Notes: generated by a model not told the origin, from the sequence alone. 64,000 nucleotides of DNA from an uncultured Nitrososphaerales archaeon (GCA_938030895.1 CALHIV010000013.1:1-64000), one strand, 5' to 3'; shown: positions 12,665 through 22,898, numbered from the stretch's first letter. Program-made: numbers and translations.

Positions 12665-13036
12665 CTAAACATCTATATTTATCTTTGAGAGTTGGTCAAC
12701 GATGTTGGTCTTGGATACTTTCAGATCGCCATGCTTCTTCAGTAGGTTGGCCACGAGCGCTATAGACAACTTTACACCATCGCTCTTCTCTTCTGGCATT
12801 GTAAGATCATCCAGTCTAACGGTTATACTGCTTCCCTTGAGCATCACATCCAAGTAGAACGATCTTGGTTTACCACTCTCAACCACCACAGCCTTTGCTA
12901 GCAATCTATTCTCAGCAGCGTTTATGAATAGTTCATCCAACTTGATTATTGCATCATCTATGCGTACAGATACCCTCTTGAAGTTCCTTAGAAGATCCTT
13001 CAGGTTAAGGTTACCATCTAGCACTACGTGGGGCAT
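12665..13036 (-). CDS. Conserved hypothetical protein downstream of NDH-2 (123 aa)
   Basis: Not recognised. The product is soluble and alternates beta and helix, with no Cys cluster or membrane segment. The start MPHVVLDG is chosen because GGAGGTGA, which includes the ndh stop, precedes it by 5 nt. It therefore appears to be translated from the ndh message and may share the control of that promoter. Confidence 0.75.
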   Translation of the reverse strand: MPHVVLDGNLNLKDLLRNFKRVSVRIDDAIIKLDELFINAAENRLLAKAVVVESGKPRSFYLDVMLKGSSITVRLDDLTMPEEKSDGVKLSIALVANLLKKHGDLKVSKTNIVDQLSKINIDV

Positions 13037-13041
13037 GATAC

Positions 13042-14388
13042 TCACCTCCTCAACCTATTAGTCATCATCTGCATCATGATACAGTGAGCAGGGTATTCAG
13101 CCTCCTTTGTAGAGCCCCGATGATAACCCATCCCAAGTATTGTATAGAATCTGGTCAGTAGTGCGAGTGTGTAGCGTGCAGATACATAGGTTAATGCTCT
13201 ACCGAGAGTTATCATACCTGCTATAGGATCCTCTTCATATGCAAACTTTGCAGAGCTATCGCCATAAAGCATCCTCTTATAGTTGTATGTGATGAACTCA
13301 TCAACATATCTGCACAACTCGCCCTCTAACCTTAAACCATCTATCACGCCTATACATTCATCCCCTAGAGAGAGGATTGATCCTTGCTTCTTTATCGATA
13401 ATGGTATTACTCCCTTGCCCTCCATCATATTGAGTATATTCATTGCTACCTTGTAGCCCTGCCTTACAGCAGTCTGTGCAAGTTGGGGAGCATAACCACT
13501 ACCACCATCATAATCTAGCCTAAAGGCTGAGATATCGCCTACAGCATATGCATCATCGTAACCCTTTATCCTCGAGAATCTATCAACCTCTATCCTATAC
13601 CCTTTAACCCTACTTACATCTGGAGTAATCTCTATGCTGGAGCCCTTTACACCAGCAGTCCATATTGTAAGATCGCTCCTGATCTCTTCACCATCATCCA
13701 TGGTGAGAGAGCGATCATCCACTTTCATAACCTTCTTACCTGTTAGTATCTCAACGCCTTTATCCTTGAGCAGATCCGTAGCGCTCTTAACTATATAATC
13801 ATCCCAACCATGCAGTATCCTATCTAGGGCCTCAACTATCTTTATCTTGAACTTCTTCCCTAAGGTTCTTCCTGCCTCTGAGAGAGCCCCTGCAAGGCTT
13901 ATACCGGTTGCTCCCCCTCCAACTATTATCAGGCTACCTCCATCCTTAACAGACCTGAGCCTCTTGCGTATATTCAGCGCATCCTCCATACTCCTGAACC
14001 CTATAGCATGCTCCCTAGCACCATCTACACCATAGTTAACCTCTGCTCCTAAAGCGAGTATGAGGTGATCGTAGCGTATATGTTCAACACCATCATCGGC
14101 ATATATACTAATCCTCCTCTCATTAAGGTCGATAGATCTTATCGTGGATCTTACTATCCTAGTATATCTTCCCTTGAGTACCTCGTTCAGAGGGATTATA
14201 TTCTCTTGTACATCCTCCAATCCTCCAGCAACTAGGTGTGCCCTAGTCAGTATCTCATGGTAACTCTTCCTATCTATCACTGTTAGATCTACCTTACCAT
14301 CTAGAATAACAGATGCTGTGATCCCAGCATACCCAGCACCTGCAACAACCACCTTCTCATCCTTGCCTCTGATCCTAATAGAGTACAT
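13042..14388 (-). CDS. ndh: Type II NADH dehydrogenase-like FAD oxidoreductase
   Basis: Single-subunit, non-proton-pumping flavoprotein of the NDH-2 / sulfide:quinone reductase superfamily. FAD-binding motif VVVAGAGYAGITAS lies near residue 12 and the second dinucleotide fold near residue 150 (LIIVGGGATGISLAGAL). The late AVGDISAF segment is the usual second FAD contact, and the C-terminus has hydrophobic helices for membrane association. The sulfide:quinone reductase cysteine pair is not evident, so NADH oxidation with quinone reduction is favoured. A TATA box (14411-14418) is at leaderless distance, and the shared operator-like element lies just upstream of it. Confidence 0.87.
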   Translation of the reverse strand: MYSIRIRGKDEKVVVAGAGYAGITASVILDGKVDLTVIDRKSYHEILTRAHLVAGGLEDVQENIIPLNEVLKGRYTRIVRSTIRSIDLNERRISIYADDGVEHIRYDHLILALGAEVNYGVDGAREHAIGFRSMEDALNIRKRLRSVKDGGSLIIVGGGATGISLAGALSEAGRTLGKKFKIKIVEALDRILHGWDDYIVKSATDLLKDKGVEILTGKKVMKVDDRSLTMDDGEEIRSDLTIWTAGVKGSSIEITPDVSRVKGYRIEVDRFSRIKGYDDAYAVGDISAFRLDYDGGSGYAPQLAQTAVRQGYKVAMNILNMMEGKGVIPLSIKKQGSILSLGDECIGVIDGLRLEGELCRYVDEFITYNYKRMLYGDSSAKFAYEEDPIAGMITLGRALTYVSARYTLALLTRFYTILGMGYHRGSTKEAEYPAHCIMMQMMTNRLRR

Positions 14389-14410
14389 GGGGAAGCGTTA
14401 GACAACCAGT

Positions 14411-14418
14411 TATATAAA
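14411..14418 (-). promoter_or_regulatory. TATA box of ndh
   Basis: TTTATATA on the minus strand, centred about 26 nt from the ndh ATG at 14388, which implies a leaderless transcript. Confidence 0.65.
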
Positions 14419-14419
14419 T

Positions 14420-14448
14420 AATAGTGGTAATTGTTAACTAGTGCCTAA
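14420..14448 (-). promoter_or_regulatory. Operator-like element A, upstream of ndh
   Basis: On the minus strand it begins TTAGGCACTAGTTAACAATT and ends CCACTATT. GGCACTA starts 27 bp before the TATA box. It is closely related to elements B (15400-15429) and C (17352-17381). It touches the 3' end of the cobalamin-binding gene. Confidence 0.6.
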
Positions 14449-14449
14449 G

Positions 14450-15370
14450 TTAGAGCAACTCTGCTAGTTGCTGTAGACTCTTTACAATGATGACCTCTTT
14501 ATCAAGGCCCATCTCGCTGATACCCCTACCACCTACGATTATAGTTATGCTATCACCATAACGCTTGAGCAGCTCCCTTACAAGCCTCTCAGCTGCCTTT
14601 ACTCTAGATGATAAAGTTACAGAGAGTATAATGATTCTTGGCCTTACCTCTTGCACGTATTTGATTACAGTCTCTCTTGGGGTTGATGGCGCTATATTGT
14701 ATACCTTGTATCCTTTGCTCATTAGTATGGATTCCACCATCTTGCATGGTATACTATGTAGATCCCCATACGGTGTACATATAAGTACATCGCCCTTCTT
14801 GTTATCATTATTCATATTCTGAGCATTATAATTCTCTATCACCTGTATTAGACCTAGAGTGGTATTGCTGCATACATGCTCTATTGCTATCCCAAGCTCA
14901 TCCCTCATCCAGAGATAGCCTACTTCATTAAGTGCAGGGATAATGATATTGTTATAGAACTCTAGTAGGGCTAGATCCTTCCTCTTATACTTCTCCACGA
15001 ATACCTTGTATATATCCAGTAGCCTATCCACATCCCCAGATGAGAGCATCTCTATTATACCCTTGCTATCATTGCTCAATACCATCCTACTCTTATGATC
15101 CTGTGTTCTTTCATCATGCCTCTCATATTCTCCATCTTCACCCCCATCATGACCCTTGCCTATCTTCGACTCATCGACCATCTTGAGGAACCTGAGTATA
15201 TTTGGATCGCTCCTATACTCCTCTGGTATATCACTCATACTTATATCATCTATCCTGCCGAGGTACTTTATGGTTCTCTGCTTAGGCTGCTTCCTCTCTC
15301 TATCCCATACACTCTCGACTAGGTATGCATATCTTATACCCCTTATGTTCTTCATCCTTATATAGGCCAC
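14450..15370 (-). CDS. Cobalamin-binding protein with B12-photoreceptor signature (CarH/LitR-like sensor module)
   Basis: 306 residues. The first 45 residues form a basic segment (AYLVES...KYLGRI) like the N-terminus of some IS1634-type transposases, perhaps for DNA binding. After an acidic linker (70-95), a helical bundle at about 100-185 contains Trp154, Glu164 and His165: W-x9-EH, the hallmark of the adenosylcobalamin light-sensing bundle in CarH/LitR. A Rossmann-type B12 domain follows, with D203-x-H205 as the probable lower cobalt ligand; the usual motif-ending Gly is Pro208. No catalytic methyltransferase domain is present, so sensing or regulation is inferred. The start is a GTG at leaderless distance from TATA; ATG at 15355 is an alternative. 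Its promoter carries the operator-like element found at its neighbours, which suggests autoregulation. Confidence 0.82.
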   Translation of the reverse strand: MAYIRMKNIRGIRYAYLVESVWDRERKQPKQRTIKYLGRIDDISMSDIPEEYRSDPNILRFLKMVDESKIGKGHDGGEDGEYERHDERTQDHKSRMVLSNDSKGIIEMLSSGDVDRLLDIYKVFVEKYKRKDLALLEFYNNIIIPALNEVGYLWMRDELGIAIEHVCSNTTLGLIQVIENYNAQNMNNDNKKGDVLICTPYGDLHSIPCKMVESILMSKGYKVYNIAPSTPRETVIKYVQEVRPRIIILSVTLSSRVKAAERLVRELLKRYGDSITIIVGGRGISEMGLDKEVIIVKSLQQLAELL

Positions 15371-15387
15371 GATCGATCTACACAGCT

Positions 15388-15399
15388 CTTATAAATAAA
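15388..15399 (-). promoter_or_regulatory. TATA region of the cobalamin-binding sensor gene
   Basis: TTTATTTATAAG on the minus strand. The box is centred 22-26 nt from the GTG start at 15370, consistent with a leaderless message. Confidence 0.6.
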
Positions 15400-15429
15400 C
15401 CTAGTGCTAAATTGTTTAACTAGTGCCAA
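15400..15429 (-). promoter_or_regulatory. Operator-like element B, upstream of the cobalamin-binding sensor gene
   Basis: On the minus strand it contains GGCACTAGTTAAACAATTTA followed by GCACTAGG, so GCACTAG is directly repeated about two helical turns apart. GGCACTA starts 28 bp before the TATA region. It overlaps the stop of the UV endonuclease gene. Confidence 0.62.
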
Positions 15430-15863
15430 GTAGCAGACTCGATGATGCGTATCAACTCATCAACACCTACTTTACGCCTATAATATGTGTAGAACCATGG
15501 TTTGGCCTTAACCTTATCTATGAGTCTCGACTTGATCAAACTGACATCATCCTCATCTGGTCTCCAATCACCCAACATTATGTTAGGGAAGCCATCTGTG
15601 CTTACTACTCTCCTACTTGTATAGCCCCTCCTTGCCATCTCATACCTTAGAGAGTCGTGCCTCCTCTTCAGGTAGAGTACCTTATCCTTGAAGAAGATCA
15701 TATGCCCCTTGCCTAGTGTGAACCTCCTTGGTATTCTAGTCAGATCATGATCCCTAAGGGGATGACTTCTTAGATAGGAGATTAGCATAAGTATCTCGTT
15801 ATACTCTGCTATGAGATGCTGATCTGTTAGATATAAGGGGTAGATCAGGTTAACCCTAACCAA
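15420..15863 (-). CDS. Pyrimidine-dimer DNA glycosylase / AP lyase, T4 endonuclease V (DenV) family
   Basis: Cuts the glycosyl bond at UV-induced pyrimidine dimers and nicks the DNA. The 147 residues align with T4 endonuclease V without gaps at the N-terminus: Arg3, Asn5, His16 and catalytic Glu23 are in the same places (TDQHLIAEYNE), and TLGKGHMIFFKDK and PWFYTYY match the later part. Thr2, whose amino group is the nucleophile, is Val here, and Arg22 is Asn; a free alpha-amine would still be available once Met is removed. The initiator is TTG, fixed by the alignment, and overlaps the upstream membrane-protein gene by 8 nt. It belongs to the cluster with the putative light sensor, which supports a UV-response role. 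Confidence 0.9.
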   Translation of the reverse strand: MVRVNLIYPLYLTDQHLIAEYNEILMLISYLRSHPLRDHDLTRIPRRFTLGKGHMIFFKDKVLYLKRRHDSLRYEMARRGYTSRRVVSTDGFPNIMLGDWRPDEDDVSLIKSRLIDKVKAKPWFYTYYRRKVGVDELIRIIESATWH

Positions 15864-16329
15864 GCCATATCACTACAAGATGAGCAACCACTATGCCATA
15901 GACTACATGTGCTACAAGGCTTAGCAGTGTAGGCTTGTAGCCTAGAGGATGCTTCGTTATCGATACCCCCGTTATAGGTTTGTGTATAGGTGCAAGGGTG
16001 AGTATCCAGAGCAGTAACCCGAATGATAGTCCTAGTAGATTCGCATCCAAATCGATTAGAGAGAGGCCCTTCACTACGACTGCATAGAAGAGTGCTGCAA
16101 GCCCTCCATTCAGGAAGTGTAGTATAAACCCTTCCCTTGTTAATCTCTCTGGACTCCTCTTCAGGAGGATGGACATCAGACACTGATTCTCATGCCACTC
16201 TAGTATACCCATCATCCCCCATCTCTTCCAGAATGGGTATTGGATGATGCTTATTATACCAGTCGCTATACATCCTGCTATAAAACCTATAAGGGCTTCG
16301 TTAATGCTCTCACCCCCTTCCTTATACAT
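15856..16329 (-). CDS. Hypothetical multi-pass membrane protein in the sensor/repair cluster
   Basis: About 157 residues with four hydrophobic segments (near residues 10-27, 71-85, 92-112 and 133-155). Family not recognised. The loop LEWHENQCLMSILLKRSPER is polar and could be functional. It overlaps the 3' end of the SRPBCC gene by 43 nt and the UV endonuclease gene by 8 nt, so all three are probably on one transcript. Confidence 0.75.
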   Translation of the reverse strand: MYKEGGESINEALIGFIAGCIATGIISIIQYPFWKRWGMMGILEWHENQCLMSILLKRSPERLTREGFILHFLNGGLAALFYAVVVKGLSLIDLDANLLGLSFGLLLWILTLAPIHKPITGVSITKHPLGYKPTLLSLVAHVVYGIVVAHLVVIWLG

Positions 16330-17321
16330 CCATGCCTTGAGCTCATTATAGCATCTGCAACGAGGTTGATTACAGATAATGTGAGGAAGAACACCGCTAT
16401 AGTGCTTACACCTTGTGAAGAGATCATATACAATGGTACATAGAATGGGATGAGCATACTAGCCAATGGACCTGCTATATACATGGAAGCGTACCCATAC
16501 TTGGACGCTCTGCTACCCTCTCTATCTATCTTTATCCCCAATGCTATAAAGAGCATCCTATACTTTGGGCCTATCCTCAATGCCTTGACGAGGTTCGATA
16601 TGCCTATGTAGAAGTGGGAGAATCTTACACCTACCAGCATCCCAACTATCAGGTGGAGTAGGTCATGCGTGAAGAACCATAGGAGGAACCATGCTAGAGC
16701 ATTAGAGATCAGGAGTAGCATGTTATCGTTGAAGTTGGTATAGATGGGGATCAGTAGCCCGATCATGGTCATTGCTATGCATAATGCGCTTCCTTTGGCA
16801 AGGCTTATGACTGTAGGATCTCTATACTTAACCTCTACCTTGCTATTGTTACCCTCCAGCACCTCCTTGATCCTATGGTTTCTATACTCGAGTATATTTG
16901 ATATCATCTTCTCAGCGAACATATCGCCTATCGGACCTAGTACAGTTCTGAACACTATTCTATCATCTATTATACATCCTTCGTTAGAGCCTCTACCATG
17001 TACATCTCCATCCTCATTAGCCGTTGAATCCCTTACAGTATGCGTATGTCTCCATAGCATGAATGGTGAGCCTATAGCCTCATCTGTGAACCCTATACCA
17101 TCTCTGTAATCCCTTACTATTGAGTGCCATTCGAACCTCTGGCCTAGGAGTCTAGCCTCCATCCTTATGGTAGAGCCCTCAGATATATGCTCTGGAGCCT
17201 CGAGTACCCTAAACCTTAGGCTCTCTGGATAGACGAGTTCTATATTCTTTGGGTCTGCTACGAACCTGAACGCAGTATCCTTATCAACATTGACATGAAC
17301 GCTTGACGATACACTGCCCAT
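16287..17321 (-). CDS. SRPBCC-domain protein fused to an M50-like membrane domain
   Basis: Residues 1-150 form an SRPBCC (START-like) ligand-binding domain, with LWRHTHTV and a late FRTVLGPIGDMFAEK region like the SRPBCC proteins often found near photolyase genes in bacteria (family knowledge, from memory). The second half has about five membrane segments. FFTHDLLHLIVG followed by AGPLASMLIP resembles the site-2 protease (M50) pattern, but the HExxH glutamate is Asp, so protease activity is uncertain. The start is set at the ATG giving MGSVSSS, since the TATA box is about 26 nt upstream of it and an ATG five codons earlier would be too close. First gene of a three-gene unit. Confidence 0.78.
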   Translation of the reverse strand: MGSVSSSVHVNVDKDTAFRFVADPKNIELVYPESLRFRVLEAPEHISEGSTIRMEARLLGQRFEWHSIVRDYRDGIGFTDEAIGSPFMLWRHTHTVRDSTANEDGDVHGRGSNEGCIIDDRIVFRTVLGPIGDMFAEKMISNILEYRNHRIKEVLEGNNSKVEVKYRDPTVISLAKGSALCIAMTMIGLLIPIYTNFNDNMLLLISNALAWFLLWFFTHDLLHLIVGMLVGVRFSHFYIGISNLVKALRIGPKYRMLFIALGIKIDREGSRASKYGYASMYIAGPLASMLIPFYVPLYMISSQGVSTIAVFFLTLSVINLVADAIMSSRHGCIRKGVRALTKPL

Positions 17322-17342
17322 GGGTAGATATAGCATAGATCT

Positions 17343-17350
17343 GTATATAA
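17343..17350 (-). promoter_or_regulatory. TATA box of the SRPBCC/UV-endonuclease operon
   Basis: TTATATAC on the minus strand, centred about 26 nt from the ATG at 17321, implying a leaderless message. Confidence 0.6.
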
Positions 17351-17351
17351 C

Positions 17352-17381
17352 TTTTAGGCATTATCATAAATAGTGCCTAAA
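17352..17381 (-). promoter_or_regulatory. Operator-like element C: perfect 8-bp inverted repeat upstream of the SRPBCC operon
   Basis: Arms TTTAGGCA (17353-17360) and TGCCTAAA (17374-17381) are perfectly complementary and separated by 13 nt. Read on the minus strand it contains AGGCACTA, and GGCACTA starts 27 bp before TATA, the same spacing as element A. It is located immediately upstream of the TATA box. Confidence 0.65.
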
Positions 17382-17383
17382 TA

Positions 17384-17932
17384 TTATAGGTTAGCCTTAT
17401 CCCTCCCCTCAAGGTAAGCCTTGTAACCCATCTCTTCTAGTCTTGCTGCTGCATCAAGCACCTTATCTCTCATCCTCCTCCTATACTCATCCAACTTTGC
17501 TGCTATATCCTCATACTTTAGTGCAAGTATCTCACATGCTAGAAGTGCAGCATTCTTGGCACCGTTTATGGCTACCGTTGCAACTGGCACCCCTGGAGGC
17601 ATCTGCACTATCGAGAGTAGTGAGTCTAGACCATTGAGGTTTGAGGATCTTATAGGCACGCCTATCACAGGAAGGGTTGTGAGGGACGCTACCATCCCAG
17701 GTAGATGGGCAGCGCCTCCAGCAGCAGCTATTATAACCTCTACACCTCTCCCTCTGGCATTCCTTGCATAATCATACATACGCTCTGGGGTTCTATGGGC
17801 AGATACTATGCTCACCTCATATGCAACGTTGAGCTCATCTAAAAGTGAACATGCATCCTTCATAACCTCGAGGTCCGAATCGCTACCCATTATAACAGCA
17901 ACCTTTGCATTCATACTCATATACACGCTCAT
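17384..17932 (-). CDS. purE: N5-carboxyaminoimidazole ribonucleotide mutase
   Basis: Class I PurE converts N5-CAIR to CAIR in purine synthesis. The signature [14 protein letters not shown] is at the N-terminus, then [13 protein letters not shown] and [15 protein letters not shown]. The presence of purK directly upstream fits the two-step, ATP-using route. Length of 182 residues is normal; the start could be at either of the first three Met codons. Twelve nt separate it from purK. Confidence 0.96.
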
Positions 17933-17944
17933 CCCATCATCTCA

Positions 17945-19162
17945 TCATATGCTTACTAACCTCAACTTTGACTTGATGAGTAATGCCTTGCTTATCACAT
18001 CGTCAAGATCATCACCAAGCAGTGTTATATGCCCTAACTTCCTCCTACCCTTGTTGCTCCTCTTCCCATATATATGGAGCCTTGCATCCATGCCCATGAT
18101 ATCCTCCATCCCATCTATAGCATAGTAACCATTCACCCTCTCATCCCCCAGTATATTCACCATAACAGCTGCCTTGCATACCATCCTAGGTTCAACTAGG
18201 GGTAGATCCAATATAGCCCTTATATGCTGCTCGAACTGGGATATATTACATGCCTCAATACTGTAATGGCCTGTGTTATGAACCCTGGGGGCAACCTCAT
18301 TCACCAGTATCATATACCCATCATCGCCAGCATCTACTGCAGTTCTATCGGTTCTACTGAAACCATTCCTTGCAATGAACATCTCAACCCCAAAGACCCC
18401 TATCCCATCAAAGGCCTTTATAACATCCATAGCTATATTTCTTGCCTTATCTGCTAATTGCCCTGGTATCCTTGCTGGCACTATACTTGTATCAAGTATA
18501 CCATCATCATGTATATTCTCAGCAACAGGGTATGCCACTACTACCTCTCCTTCCTTTCTACTCCTAGCAACTATAACAGACACCTCCTTTACAAAGTCTA
18601 TGAAGCGCTCAACGTAAACAGAGTTCCATCCACCCTTCTCATCGACGAACCTCTCAATCCTATAGTTTATGGTATCATCACAGCCTTTGACCAGTAGATT
18701 GCCCCTACCATCATAGCCTCCCTTCTTTGCCTTGAGCATTACAGGATAGCCTATGCTACTTGCGATGGAGTGTATATCATCCACACTCTTAACGGGGAAG
18801 AACTCTGCAACTGGTATACCGCTCTTATGGAGCAGATGCTTCTGCATGAACTTATCCTGTACTATCCTAAGGGTATGTGCTGGAGGCCTAACCTTATGCC
18901 CTCTCCTCTCAATACCCTCGAGTATATCTGCATCTGCCAACTCTATCTCATACGTTACAACATCGCTCATCTCTGCTAACCTATTCATAGCATCTGCATC
19001 ATTGAACCTTGCTACTATCAGTTCATCTGCGAACATGGATGCTGGGCACTCATCGGAAGGATCTAGTATGTTAACCCTCATGCTCAGCCTCTTGCACTCC
19101 ATAGCAAGCATCTTACCTAGTTGACCCCCTCCAACGATCCCTATCCTTATAGGGTCCTTCAT
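17945..19162 (-). CDS. purK: N5-carboxyaminoimidazole ribonucleotide synthase
   Basis: ATP-grasp enzyme that carboxylates AIR with bicarbonate. IGIVGGGQLGKMLAMECKRL is the typical N-terminus, so the start is set at MKDPIRIG; 30 further upstream codons look non-coding and would overlap the region before purF's stop. The ATP-grasp core (GYPVMLKAKKGGYDGRGN) and EVAPRVHNTGHYSIEAC are present. Confidence 0.95.
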   Translation of the reverse strand: MKDPIRIGIVGGGQLGKMLAMECKRLSMRVNILDPSDECPASMFADELIVARFNDADAMNRLAEMSDVVTYEIELADADILEGIERRGHKVRPPAHTLRIVQDKFMQKHLLHKSGIPVAEFFPVKSVDDIHSIASSIGYPVMLKAKKGGYDGRGNLLVKGCDDTINYRIERFVDEKGGWNSVYVERFIDFVKEVSVIVARSRKEGEVVVAYPVAENIHDDGILDTSIVPARIPGQLADKARNIAMDVIKAFDGIGVFGVEMFIARNGFSRTDRTAVDAGDDGYMILVNEVAPRVHNTGHYSIEACNISQFEQHIRAILDLPLVEPRMVCKAAVMVNILGDERVNGYYAIDGMEDIMGMDARLHIYGKRSNKGRRKLGHITLLGDDLDDVISKALLIKSKLRLVSI

Positions 19163-19252
19163 GCTGTAGAGCATAGTACAGCACCTACCTACCAGCATCC
19201 TCATCAGTATATTAGTTATTCCTATGTCTATAGGCCATACTAACTCACTCAC

Positions 19253-20701
19253 TCACTCACTGCTACCCTTCAACTGTTGTCTGCTCCTGAATAACGGCTG
19301 TATCTTGAGGTTCTCATAGTTGCCTGTATGGCATGTGAAGCACAACTCCTCCTTTGGTAGACCTATCGCATTCGCAAGGTTATCCATATCGTTGTAACCA
19401 ACGAAATCCACGCCTATGGCCTTTGCTACTAGCATACCAACTTCATCCTCGCTACACTCCTTACCATTGGTTACAGTATATGCTATCAACTCCTCCTGCG
19501 ATGGGAAGTCTATCCCAGCATAACATGGGAACCTTATTGGTGGATAACATACAAGCATCTTTATGCTTCTGGCACCAGCACCCCTTAGGGCACTGATTAT
19601 GGATGTGGAACTGGTCCCTCTAACTATACTATCATCTATAACTATTACATCCTTGCCCTCTATAACACTCCTTATTGGGATTATCCTTCTAACTATCTCT
19701 ATCCTATCACGCTGGTAGGGCTCTATGAAACTCCTTATTGGACCCTTCCTACTATAGCGATCCTTCATGAGCCCCTCCTCGAATGGTATGCCTATCTCCT
19801 CAGCATAGCCTAGGGCAGCTGGCCTAGCAGAGTCTGGTACCGGTATTACTATATCTGCATCAAGGTTGTACTTCCTAGCAAGTAACTTGCCTATCCTCTT
19901 CCTTGCTGAGTATATGCTTATACCCTCCATTATGCTTGATGGATGTGCAAAGTATGTGTACTCGAATGCACAGTGTGAGTGTGGCCTCTCAACAGCAAAT
20001 ATATCACTACTCAAGCCAGAGTAATCCATGGTTATGAGTTCTCCAGGCTCAACATCCCTTATCAGTTCAGCATTCACAGCATCTAGAGCACATGACTCCG
20101 ATGCAACTATATATGTGCTGCTCTCCTTATGATAGCCTAACACTAGAGGCCTGAAGCCCTTTGGATCCCTTGCAGCATATACCTTGCCATCGTTGGTGAG
20201 GAAGGTGAATGCGAATGAGCCTATTATCTCCCTCCTAAGTATATCTAGTGCGGAGGGCATATCCTTCCTCTTACTGTTGAGTAGATCCACAAGCCTCTTT
20301 GCCGCTACAAGTGTATCGCTCATACTTTGGGGCGTGAACGAGCATAACCCTGTAATACTAGCAAGTTCCTCGAAGTTAGATATTGTACCATTGTGAGCAA
20401 TGCACAGATCCTTCACCTTTAAAGGCTGAGCATTCCTTAGATTGCTCTTGCCTATGGTTGAGTACCTAACATGTCCTATTGCAGCATTGGATGCATACTT
20501 GTCTATTATGTTAGTGAATGATGGTGCTGCCTTTGATACAAGCCCATACCTCTTGTATGGTATCATCCTAGGCACTGCTATGCCCCAAGACTCCTGCCCT
20601 CTATGCTGCAATGCCCTTAGGCACTCTATCACTATTGGTACAACATTTCTACCAGAGAGGGAGTATGCTGCTACCACTCCACAGTTCTCTCTAGCATCCA
20701 T
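19253..20701 (-). CDS. purF: Amidophosphoribosyltransferase
   Basis: Catalyses the first committed purine step, PRPP plus glutamine to phosphoribosylamine. The nucleophile is Cys7 (ENCGVVAAYS) after a short propeptide, followed by a class II glutaminase domain (LQHRGQESWGIA). The phosphoribosyl domain has the PRPP loop VIVIDDSIVRGTSS. Late cysteines (CFTCHTGNYENL and others) resemble the iron-sulfur ligands of the Bacillus-type enzyme. Overlaps purL by 11 nt. Confidence 0.96.
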   Translation of the reverse strand: MDARENCGVVAAYSLSGRNVVPIVIECLRALQHRGQESWGIAVPRMIPYKRYGLVSKAAPSFTNIIDKYASNAAIGHVRYSTIGKSNLRNAQPLKVKDLCIAHNGTISNFEELASITGLCSFTPQSMSDTLVAAKRLVDLLNSKRKDMPSALDILRREIIGSFAFTFLTNDGKVYAARDPKGFRPLVLGYHKESSTYIVASESCALDAVNAELIRDVEPGELITMDYSGLSSDIFAVERPHSHCAFEYTYFAHPSSIMEGISIYSARKRIGKLLARKYNLDADIVIPVPDSARPAALGYAEEIGIPFEEGLMKDRYSRKGPIRSFIEPYQRDRIEIVRRIIPIRSVIEGKDVIVIDDSIVRGTSSTSIISALRGAGARSIKMLVCYPPIRFPCYAGIDFPSQEELIAYTVTNGKECSEDEVGMLVAKAIGVDFVGYNDMDNLANAIGLPKEELCFTCHTGNYENLKIQPLFRSRQQLKGSSE

Positions 20702-22898
20702 GGCCCATCAACCTTGATATGCTATTATACGAGTCTAGCATGCTGTCCATGCTTATGCTGATGCTACTACCATTGTACTCTAGCATTAGGTTGCCATTGC
20801 TTGTGAACTTGCCTATAACCGCTCTATCTACAGGGTAATCTGAAAGTAGTCTATCAACAGCATCTAGATGGTCTCTCTTGATGGATAAGAGGAACCTCGA
20901 GTGCGACTCTGAGAATAGTATATCATCTAACCTTGTACACCTATGGGGAAGATTGCCCAACTCAACTCTAGCACATATACCAGACGCTATACACATCTCC
21001 GCTATTGCAGTAGCTAACCCACCCTTGGAGCAGTCATGCACAGATGTAACAAGCCCTGCCTTTATGAGTGCTAGTACTGCATCCCTCGCACTCTTATCAT
21101 ATGCTAGGTCAACCTTTGGCACATCAGTATGTAGGATAGAGTGTATATACTCATAGTACTCCGAACCTCCCATCTCATCCTTCGTTAAGCCTATGATCAT
21201 TAGCATATCACCATCTCTAGCATGGCCCTTCATAACCTTGCCATCACTGACGAGTCCTACAACACATACCAGAGGAGATGGCTTTATTGCTCCTTGCCTT
21301 GTCTCATTGTAGAAGCTCACCTTGCCACCAACACACGGTATATTCATGTACCTCCCATAATCTGCCAAGCCTCTAACAGACTCTACAAACGTCCAGAATA
21401 CATGCTCATCCTCAGGGCTCCCAAACTGCAGATGGTCAACCATTGCTATTGGCTCTGCGCCAACACATGCAACATTCCTGCATGCCTCAGAGAAGCAGCC
21501 CATACTACCATTGTATGGGTCTATATAGCAGTGCTTCGAGTTGCCATCAACCTTTACTGCTATATACTTATAATCTATATCTGTCTCTGTACCATTGCTA
21601 GTAGATACTCTCAGTAGTGTAGCATCAGCATATCCAGGCTTGATAACGGTCCTCAACCCAACCTCATGGTCATACTGCCTATACACCCACTCCTTGCTCG
21701 CTATGCTTGGATTAGAGAGTAGTTGTAGCAGTATATCTGCTATATCATCATACTCTGGCATCTCTGGCTTCCTAGAGTTACTTGCTATATACTCCATGTA
21801 TGGAGGCTTTGTTGCCTTGCGCTTCACCACTGGGGCATTTGCAACTATGCTAGCCTTTATCCTAGCCATCTCACTGCCTTGATGGTATATATGAAGATGG
21901 GCATCATCGGTTAGCCTCCCAATGACTGAGAATTGTATCTCATACTTATCCATTATAGCCTTGAACTCCTCGAACCTTGAAGGTTCGACTATGTATAGCA
22001 TCCTCTCCTGCGATTCGGATATCATGATCTCCTCAGCGCTCATCTCCTCCCTCAAGTGTAGAGCATCTAGGTTTATGATCATGCCCTTGCCTAACTTGTC
22101 TGCAGTCTCAGATAAGCAGCATGCTAAGCCTCCTCCTCCTAGATCCTTTATTGCCTTTACGCATCCAGAGTCTACACACTCCATGGTAGCATCTATGAGT
22201 AGTTTGCCCATGAATGGATCTGGTATCTGTACAGCAGACCTATCCTCTTCCTCCCCCTCAAATGCTCTTGATGCAAATGAGGCTCCATGTATACCATCCT
22301 TTCCAGTCCTATTACCAGCAATGATGAGAAGGTCACCTGTATCACCCTTGAGCGTTACAAGTCTATCCTTCCTTGCTACGCCTATACATGCAACATCAAC
22401 TAGGCAATAGCCCTTGAACGAGTCATCGAACTCTACCTCTCCAGCAACCGTAGGCACGCCTATACAGTTACCATAATCTGCTATGCCTCTAACGACGTTC
22501 CTGAAGAGCCATCTCGCATGGTTATCATCCCTTATATCCCCAAACCTTAGTGCATCTAGCAGTGCTATAGGTCTACTGCCCATACTGAGTATATCCCTTA
22601 TCACTCCTCCTACTCCAGTTGCTGCACCACCGTAAGGCTCTACCGCAGATGGATGGTTATGACTCTCTATATGCACTGTGAGAAGGATTCCATCACCTAT
22701 ATCTAGAACTCCAGCATCATATCCAGGGCCTATGAGTACGTACTTGCCTTTGGTATTAAACATGCTGAGATATGGCCTAGATGATTTGTATGAGCAGTGC
22801 TCAGACCACTCAGCAGATACCATGCTCAACTCAACAATATTGGGCTCTCTTCCAAGGGCATCATGTAGATACCTGATCTCCTCATCCGTTAGGCTCAT
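20691..22898 (-). CDS. purL: Phosphoribosylformylglycinamidine synthase subunit PurL
   Basis: Synthetase subunit of the three-part FGAM synthase (PurL/Q/S). The AIRS-like duplicated fold is visible: SEHCSYKSSRPYL near the N-terminus, HIESHNHPSAVEPYGGAATG, and DLGGGGLACCLSE. At 735 residues it has the short, archaeal/Gram-positive form that needs PurS and PurQ, both encoded next door. Overlaps purQ by 4 nt. Confidence 0.97.
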   Translation of the reverse strand: MSLTDEEIRYLHDALGREPNIVELSMVSAEWSEHCSYKSSRPYLSMFNTKGKYVLIGPGYDAGVLDIGDGILLTVHIESHNHPSAVEPYGGAATGVGGVIRDILSMGSRPIALLDALRFGDIRDDNHARWLFRNVVRGIADYGNCIGVPTVAGEVEFDDSFKGYCLVDVACIGVARKDRLVTLKGDTGDLLIIAGNRTGKDGIHGASFASRAFEGEEEDRSAVQIPDPFMGKLLIDATMECVDSGCVKAIKDLGGGGLACCLSETADKLGKGMIINLDALHLREEMSAEEIMISESQERMLYIVEPSRFEEFKAIMDKYEIQFSVIGRLTDDAHLHIYHQGSEMARIKASIVANAPVVKRKATKPPYMEYIASNSRKPEMPEYDDIADILLQLLSNPSIASKEWVYRQYDHEVGLRTVIKPGYADATLLRVSTSNGTETDIDYKYIAVKVDGNSKHCYIDPYNGSMGCFSEACRNVACVGAEPIAMVDHLQFGSPEDEHVFWTFVESVRGLADYGRYMNIPCVGGKVSFYNETRQGAIKPSPLVCVVGLVSDGKVMKGHARDGDMLMIIGLTKDEMGGSEYYEYIHSILHTDVPKVDLAYDKSARDAVLALIKAGLVTSVHDCSKGGLATAIAEMCIASGICARVELGNLPHRCTRLDDILFSESHSRFLLSIKRDHLDAVDRLLSDYPVDRAVIGKFTSNGNLMLEYNGSSISISMDSMLDSYNSISRLMGHGC

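Follow-up and report, generated by a model that had tools for sequence, protein, structure and literature searches.

Does a gene cluster of an ammonia-oxidising archaeon (AOA) encode a B12-dependent light sensor, and which genes would such a sensor control? The question is raised by positions 14450-17321 of the window, that is, of the whole stretch of 64,000 nucleotides that was analysed. Few organisms on Earth are more common than AOA. Nitrifiers have been documented to undergo photoinhibition (PMC9239080), and no light sensor of AOA is known to us. The original prediction stated that an archaeal B12 light sensor controls UV repair and membrane functions. Our analysis supports this view, in which binding of adenosylcobalamin (AdoCbl) and the response to light or UV remain inferences. 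It is likely (probability approximately 0.75) that the receptor is an AdoCbl photoreceptor and transcription regulator of AOA with a transposase-derived DNA-binding domain; operator binding is likewise inferred. At the level of sequence, the locus combines a CarH/photocobilin-type sensor bearing the AdoCbl/light signature, an IS1634-homologous N-terminal domain, and a tandem element with a 19-bp period at the TATA box.

Domain structure and signature of the receptor

The source genome is that of a Nitrosocaldus, the genus of Ca. Nitrosocaldus schleperae, and is 98.66% complete. The receptor gene and its domains are located as follows.

14450-15370, minus strand: putative AdoCbl photoreceptor-regulator gene (P0001; 306 aa, GTG start)
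15173-15370, minus strand: N-terminal domain, residues 1-66; basic (pI 9.6), putative DNA-binding part
14840-15058, minus strand: helical bundle PF02607, residues 105-177, with G151xxW154-x9-E164H165 as adenosyl-side signature
14516-14788, minus strand: B12-binding Rossmann domain PF02310, residues 195-285, with D203xH205xxP208...S250xT252...G280G281

The matches to B12-binding_2 (3.3e-10) and B12-binding (1.8e-14) are both above the Pfam cut-off. The adenosyl-side signature of the helical bundle is as described previously (PMC11796333, PMC9304148), and the B12 domain contains the motif G202DLH205, whose His205 is predicted to be the lower axial ligand. The published light signature comprises GxxW, EH, GxxH and GxxxP (PMC11796333); the classic B12 motif is D/ExHxxG/P...SxT/V...GG (PMC9304148). 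The window protein satisfies both, the sole exception being the Gly of GxxxP. This motif reads AxxxP; P231 is invariant, and the Gly position is occupied by Ser, Ala or Gly among homologues. The motifs GxxW, EH and GxxH correspond to G151xxW154, E164H165 and G202xxH205 and are kept in 50 of 51 aligned homologues. All 50 intact homologues contain G151, W154, E164, H165, G202, H205, P231, S250, G280 and G281. Because these positions are conserved in 50/50 sequences, the W-x9-EH / DxH signature cannot be attributed to chance. The positions originally assigned to W154-x9-E164-H165 and D203-x-H205 were thus exact.

The bis-His residue that follows the Trp in TtCarH is Met155 in the window protein; in CtMerR this residue is not a His either. 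The full-length model of the receptor, computed from a single sequence, was poor (pLDDT 64): the adenosyl pocket could not be resolved and a fold search was of little value.

The sensor groups with photoreceptors and not with corrinoid carriers

Of the 201 genomes sampled from the order, 68 contain receptor homologues. They occur in three of six Nitrosocaldus genomes and in the families f7, f9 and f14, the first two of which we take, from their kinship, to be Nitrososphaeraceae and Nitrosopumilaceae. No relatives of the receptor were found in viral contigs. An alignment of 18 diverse members was later extended to 50. In the former, identity to the window protein is 29-38% if two Nitrosocaldus members are excluded. 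In both alignments the fully invariant positions make up the AdoCbl photoreceptor pocket and one block of the N-terminal domain.

The Pfam domains of the receptor are identical to those of corrinoid methyltransferase carriers and methionine-synthase-like proteins, and weak matches to MtbC/MtgC/MetH models were observed. Both observations would suit a carrier, and grouping with carriers had been named beforehand as a result that would refute a light sensor. In a profile search of solved structures, SasPcob (3e-22), CtMerR (7e-19) and AbPcob (6e-18) ranked top; methionine synthase (4e-15) and other carriers followed behind the photocobilins and CtMerR, and TtCarH reached 3e-12. A tree was calculated from the archaeal family, eight photoreceptor-type sequences and four corrinoid carriers, which served as outgroup. 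The archaeal family formed one group (support 100/98), the carriers formed a clade of their own (100/99), and the split that separates them from photoreceptors plus archaeal family was supported at 100/99. The branching order within the photoreceptors is unsure, because the branches are long. The compared carriers lack W-x9-EH, and no methyltransferase neighbour was seen. The carrier reading is thus refuted with respect to grouping and all but excluded. We dropped it, as tree placement and motif both speak against it.

A second, diverged receptor copy lies near a photolyase gene in one other genome (G137, L131:8402-9265, minus strand). It lacks the Trp, the EH pair and the promoter element, and has kept ExH; in this it resembles CarA, which is found beside CarH.

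The receptor shares a homologous N-terminal domain with IS1634 transposases

An output domain unlike MerR had been foreseen. This held: no MerR match was found in the window protein, whereas TtCarH gave one. Moreover, the domain could be identified as IS1634-transposase-like. Annotated IS1634 transposases were collected by means of a consensus and then subjected to a profile-profile comparison. The N-terminal domain of the receptor matched the transposase N-terminus with an hhalign probability of 96% and an E-value of 4.6e-9 over 44 aligned columns; shuffled or reversed controls gave E-values of 0.08-0.6. This profile similarity, spanning about 45 residues, establishes homology. The N-terminus of a transposase is expected to bind the ends of the element. 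That the receptor domain binds DNA is the natural inference from this homology; there are no binding data.

Among 250 genomes of the phylum, the domain turned up solely at the head of the receptor, and it is basic across the family (pI 8-10). For two sequences a three-stranded sheet plus helix was predicted with a pLDDT of 90. Searches of Pfam, NCBIfam, PHROGs, PDB sequences and plasmids yielded no convincing match. Foldseek gave no significant or convincing relative, and weak matches to PC4/Sub1 were set aside.

Genes adjoining the receptor

The following genes surround the receptor gene in the window.

15420-15863, minus strand: pyrimidine-dimer glycosylase, Pyr_excise, T4 endonuclease V-like (PF03013, 3.2e-14)
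15856-16329, minus strand: DUF6789 membrane protein (1.9e-6)
16287-17336, minus strand: fused SRPBCC and M50-like membrane protein (Polyketide_cyc2 1.1e-4, below cut-off; M50 8.3e-7)
13042-14388, minus strand: FAD/NAD(P) oxidoreductase, NDH-like, Pyr_redox_2; bears the second promoter with the element described below
12665-13045, minus strand: small protein of cluster c4; its gene overlaps the 3' end of the flavoprotein gene

The T4-endonuclease-V-like, SRPBCC/M50-like and membrane-protein neighbours on one strand were confirmed; SRPBCC and M50 are parts of one fused protein. The genes for the receptor, Pyr_excise, DUF6789 and SRPBCC-M50 overlap or almost touch. The latter three constitute an operon of overlapping open reading frames (ORFs) headed by SRPBCC-M50. 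The Pyr_excise protein scores 53.5 bits against a PF03013 cut-off of 23. No photolyase gene was found in this nearly complete Nitrosocaldus genome.

The window Pyr_excise is longer (147 aa) and lower scoring (53 bits) than most other AOA representatives (83-101 bits). Its residue 2 is Val; in T4 endonuclease V, residue 2 is Thr. A run of purine biosynthesis genes (purE, purK, purF and purL, assigned by eye) flanks the cluster at 17384-22898 and is kept in two related species.

A tandem element abuts the TATA box of the receptor gene and of further genes

A two-site promoter element, TTAGCACTAG-N9-TTAGCAYTAG, abuts the TATA box upstream of most receptor genes in four families. In the window, three promoters are concerned.

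15401-15429, minus strand: putative tandem operator TTGGCACTAG-N9-TTAGCACTAG with 19-bp period in the receptor's own promoter (no binding data)
15388-15399, minus strand: TATA box region TTTATTTATAAG of the receptor gene, against the operator
14422-14448, minus strand: putative operator TTAGGCACTAGTTAACAATTACCACTA upstream of 13042-14388, TATA at 14409-14421 (no binding data)
17353-17381, minus strand: third element TTTAGGCACTATTTATGATAATGCCTAAA, belonging to the SRPBCC-M50 operon, TATA at 17343-17352

Neither this common element nor the flavoprotein gene 13042-14388, which has it too, had been noticed in the original prediction. Sites of the TTAGGCACTA type lie against the TATA box in all three promoters, and each is kept in two further Nitrosocaldus species. 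One half-site of TTTAGGCACTATTTATGATAATGCCTAAA is kept in three species and the other half is inverted; Pyr_excise is the third ORF behind this element. The pair pattern has four matches in the window's genome, two of which are window promoters. The other exact or near matches to TTAGGCACTA that were inspected lie nearly all within ORFs.

A search matrix was trained on the receptor-promoter sites and applied to 580 kb comprising 41 loci. It detected 102 sites, compared to 1.2 in shuffled sequence, which excludes a chance motif. Of these sites, 32 precede receptor genes and 70 lie elsewhere, among them 20 before genes of the secreted-protein family c2, 10 each before genes for short-chain dehydrogenase-type (SDR) and amine-oxidase-type proteins, and three before the Nitrosocaldus flavoprotein gene. 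With a period of 19 bp in 73 sites and 18 bp in 22, the repeats are about two helical turns apart; the element usually ends 27-31 bases upstream of the start codon. Distal sites precede genes for SDR paralogues, c2 proteins, c13-type proteins and small membrane proteins. Most photolyase promoters contain degenerate sites at best. A small regulon beyond the receptor's own gene carries TTAGCACTAG-N9-TTAGCAYTAG at the TATA box, as shown by sequence.

The c2 genes (L048:845-1738 and relatives) are the commonest element-bearing genes after the receptor; they code for putative secreted proteins with WVKNNAGWWADG repeats and lack a Pfam match. A simple palindromic operator was also considered and dropped: the palindromic look is limited to the third window element, and in general the two half-sites form a direct repeat.

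In whole genomes, a strict version of the pattern was found in 40 of 201 cases, 39 of which belong to the 68 receptor-bearing genomes and one to the 133 without receptor (p = 7e-22). Within family f9, it occurs in 30 of 35 genomes with receptor and in none of 16 without. The same pattern read backwards, used as a control, matched once. The strict pattern is missing from 29 of the 68 receptor-bearing genomes, including three Nitrosocaldus genomes. Part of the co-occurrence is supplied by the receptor's own promoter; other promoters contribute too.

One could object that the sensor is correctly identified, but that the element is read by a TFB paralogue encoded nearby or by a wHTH regulator, the receptor acting through protein contacts. 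In favour of this reading, 17 of 41 loci have a TFB gene (cluster c5) near the receptor, the element is situated against TATA/BRE, and no DNA-binding relative of the N-terminal domain has been solved. Against it, three Nitrosocaldus loci have the element without a TFB gene nearby, an oligomeric regulator would suit tandem repeats two turns apart, the element co-occurs with the receptor, and the N-terminal domain is basic and transposase-like. We regard this alternative as unlikely and the receptor itself as the probable reader of the element. The TFB encoded near the receptor could possibly serve the element-bearing promoters.

UV-repair genes accompany the receptor in many genomes

For each of the 68 receptor-bearing genomes, photolyase and Pyr_excise genes were mapped relative to the receptor. 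Of the 17 genomes that encode photolyase, 10 have it no more than 5 kb from the receptor (0.12 expected). Among the 21 with Pyr_excise, the distance is at most 5 kb in seven (0.13 expected) and at most 10.5 kb in 11. No genome contains both (5.25 expected, p = 6e-4). As the genomes are related, the P values for neighbourhood and co-occurrence overstate independence and should not be taken at face value. In one locus (L043) photolyase follows directly downstream of the receptor on the same strand at a distance of 1 base, in another (L047) Pyr_excise does so at 8 bases, and in two more (L140, L141) a zinc-ribbon ORF apparently intervenes between receptor and Pyr_excise. Because positions and strands vary among genera, this is not a single frozen gene order.

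In the 41 loci, the genes near the receptor further code for NmrA/epimerase SDR (26), DUF1722 (18), the c4 family (17), FAD amine-oxidase-type proteins (13) and SRPBCC proteins (10); in three further AOA families, members of the DUF6789 family are likewise encoded near the receptor. The DUF1722, SDR, SRPBCC and FAD amine-oxidase-type neighbours echo bacterial LitR/CarH loci (PMC11417400). The second result named in advance as refuting, a lack of conserved neighbours, was not obtained. SRPBCC-M50, DUF6789 and the divergent Pyr_excise are Nitrosocaldus-specific as an exact set; the theme of UV repair, SDR, flavoprotein, SRPBCC and DUF6789 is conserved more broadly. The archaeal DNA-repair family Nre and a PF01497 binding protein are each encoded near the receptor in seven of 41 loci (L138:8982-10139 and L048:3673-4602).

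Alternatively, the physiological signal could be the level of AdoCbl or the redox state and not light, with fold and operator unchanged. This is conceivable, since the signature residues contact AdoCbl itself, the PF01497 gene near the receptor is possibly BtuF-like, and light is weak where many AOA live. On the other hand, the neighbours serve repair of UV damage and photodamage (photolyase, Pyr_excise, DUF1722) and not cobalamin biosynthesis, and proteins with the same signature responded to green light in published tests (PMC11796333). We consider an AdoCbl-status sensor improbable and prefer a light sensor, with the caveat that many AOA habitats are dim or dark.

Proposed mechanism

In the dark, the light sensor would bind AdoCbl, with the cobalt above His205 and the adenosyl group packed against Trp154. 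The bound AdoCbl would hold together an oligomer that grasps the repeats with its N-terminal domains and hides BRE/TATA from TFB/TBP. Light would break the Co-C bond and loosen the oligomer, and the genes would be derepressed. Among the derepressed genes would be those for membrane proteins, for an SDR or flavin oxidoreductase and for a UV-repair enzyme, either Pyr_excise or photolyase; the UV-repair genes lie within or next to the regulon. We narrowly favour dark repression over light activation, a guess by analogy with CarH/LitR; the placement of the element is compatible with activation as well.

Taken together, proteins that resemble B12 light sensors, contain a transposase-like piece, lie near UV-repair genes and share a common promoter switch suggest that AOA probably sense light in a way that has not been described. 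We lean, with some reserve, towards a bolder reading: a light-switch regulon evolved in AOA by joining the domesticated DNA-binding domain of an IS1634 transposase to a bacterial-type AdoCbl photosensor, which would act on TATA/BRE via tandem TTAGCACTAG sites of 19-bp period, with photolyase or a T4-endonuclease-V-like enzyme as UV-repair partner. In the open-access literature searched, no description of a B12-type light sensor or regulon in archaea was found; if true, this would be the first one described there, as far as we could find. It would possibly be a case of a transposase domain recruited into light signalling, and it would offer a new, perhaps thermostable, green-light part for optogenetics. 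Cultured strains allow direct tests of what is predicted here: the sensor, its operator and the genes under its control.

Comparison with known systems

With CarH/LitR, for example CarH from T. thermophilus, the archaeal receptor shares the helical bundle plus B12 domain, W-x9-EH and (D/E)xH. Both systems have a tandem direct-repeat operator that overlaps the core promoter; sequence and period differ, and binding is inferred for the archaeal one. In contrast to CarH/LitR, the archaeal receptor has an IS1634-like N-terminal domain instead of a MerR winged helix, lacks the bis-His residue and is associated with a TATA/BRE promoter. The operator period is 19 bp, compared to the 11-bp nnnnTnnACAn repeats of CarH (PMC9304148). 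The window protein scores 44.9 bits against the NCBIfam CarH equivalog, below the cut-off of 400 bits. Unlike IS1634-family transposases, the receptor has no DDE transposase domain after its N-terminal domain.

The closest solved sensor domains are those of the photocobilins SasPcob and AbPcob and of CtMerR, which possess the same signature and no His after the Trp. The archaeal receptor differs from them in the absence of a biliverdin globin domain, a diguanylate cyclase and a MerR domain. With regard to gene context, carH of T. thermophilus (pTT27) likewise has photolyase and SDR genes as neighbours. Bacterial LitR-PhrB-RudS light operons (PMC11417400) differ in that the archaeal DUF1722 is a stand-alone protein, the setting is archaeal and the regulator is another fusion; in both cases, DUF1722 and photolyase genes lie beside a regulator that resembles a B12 light sensor.
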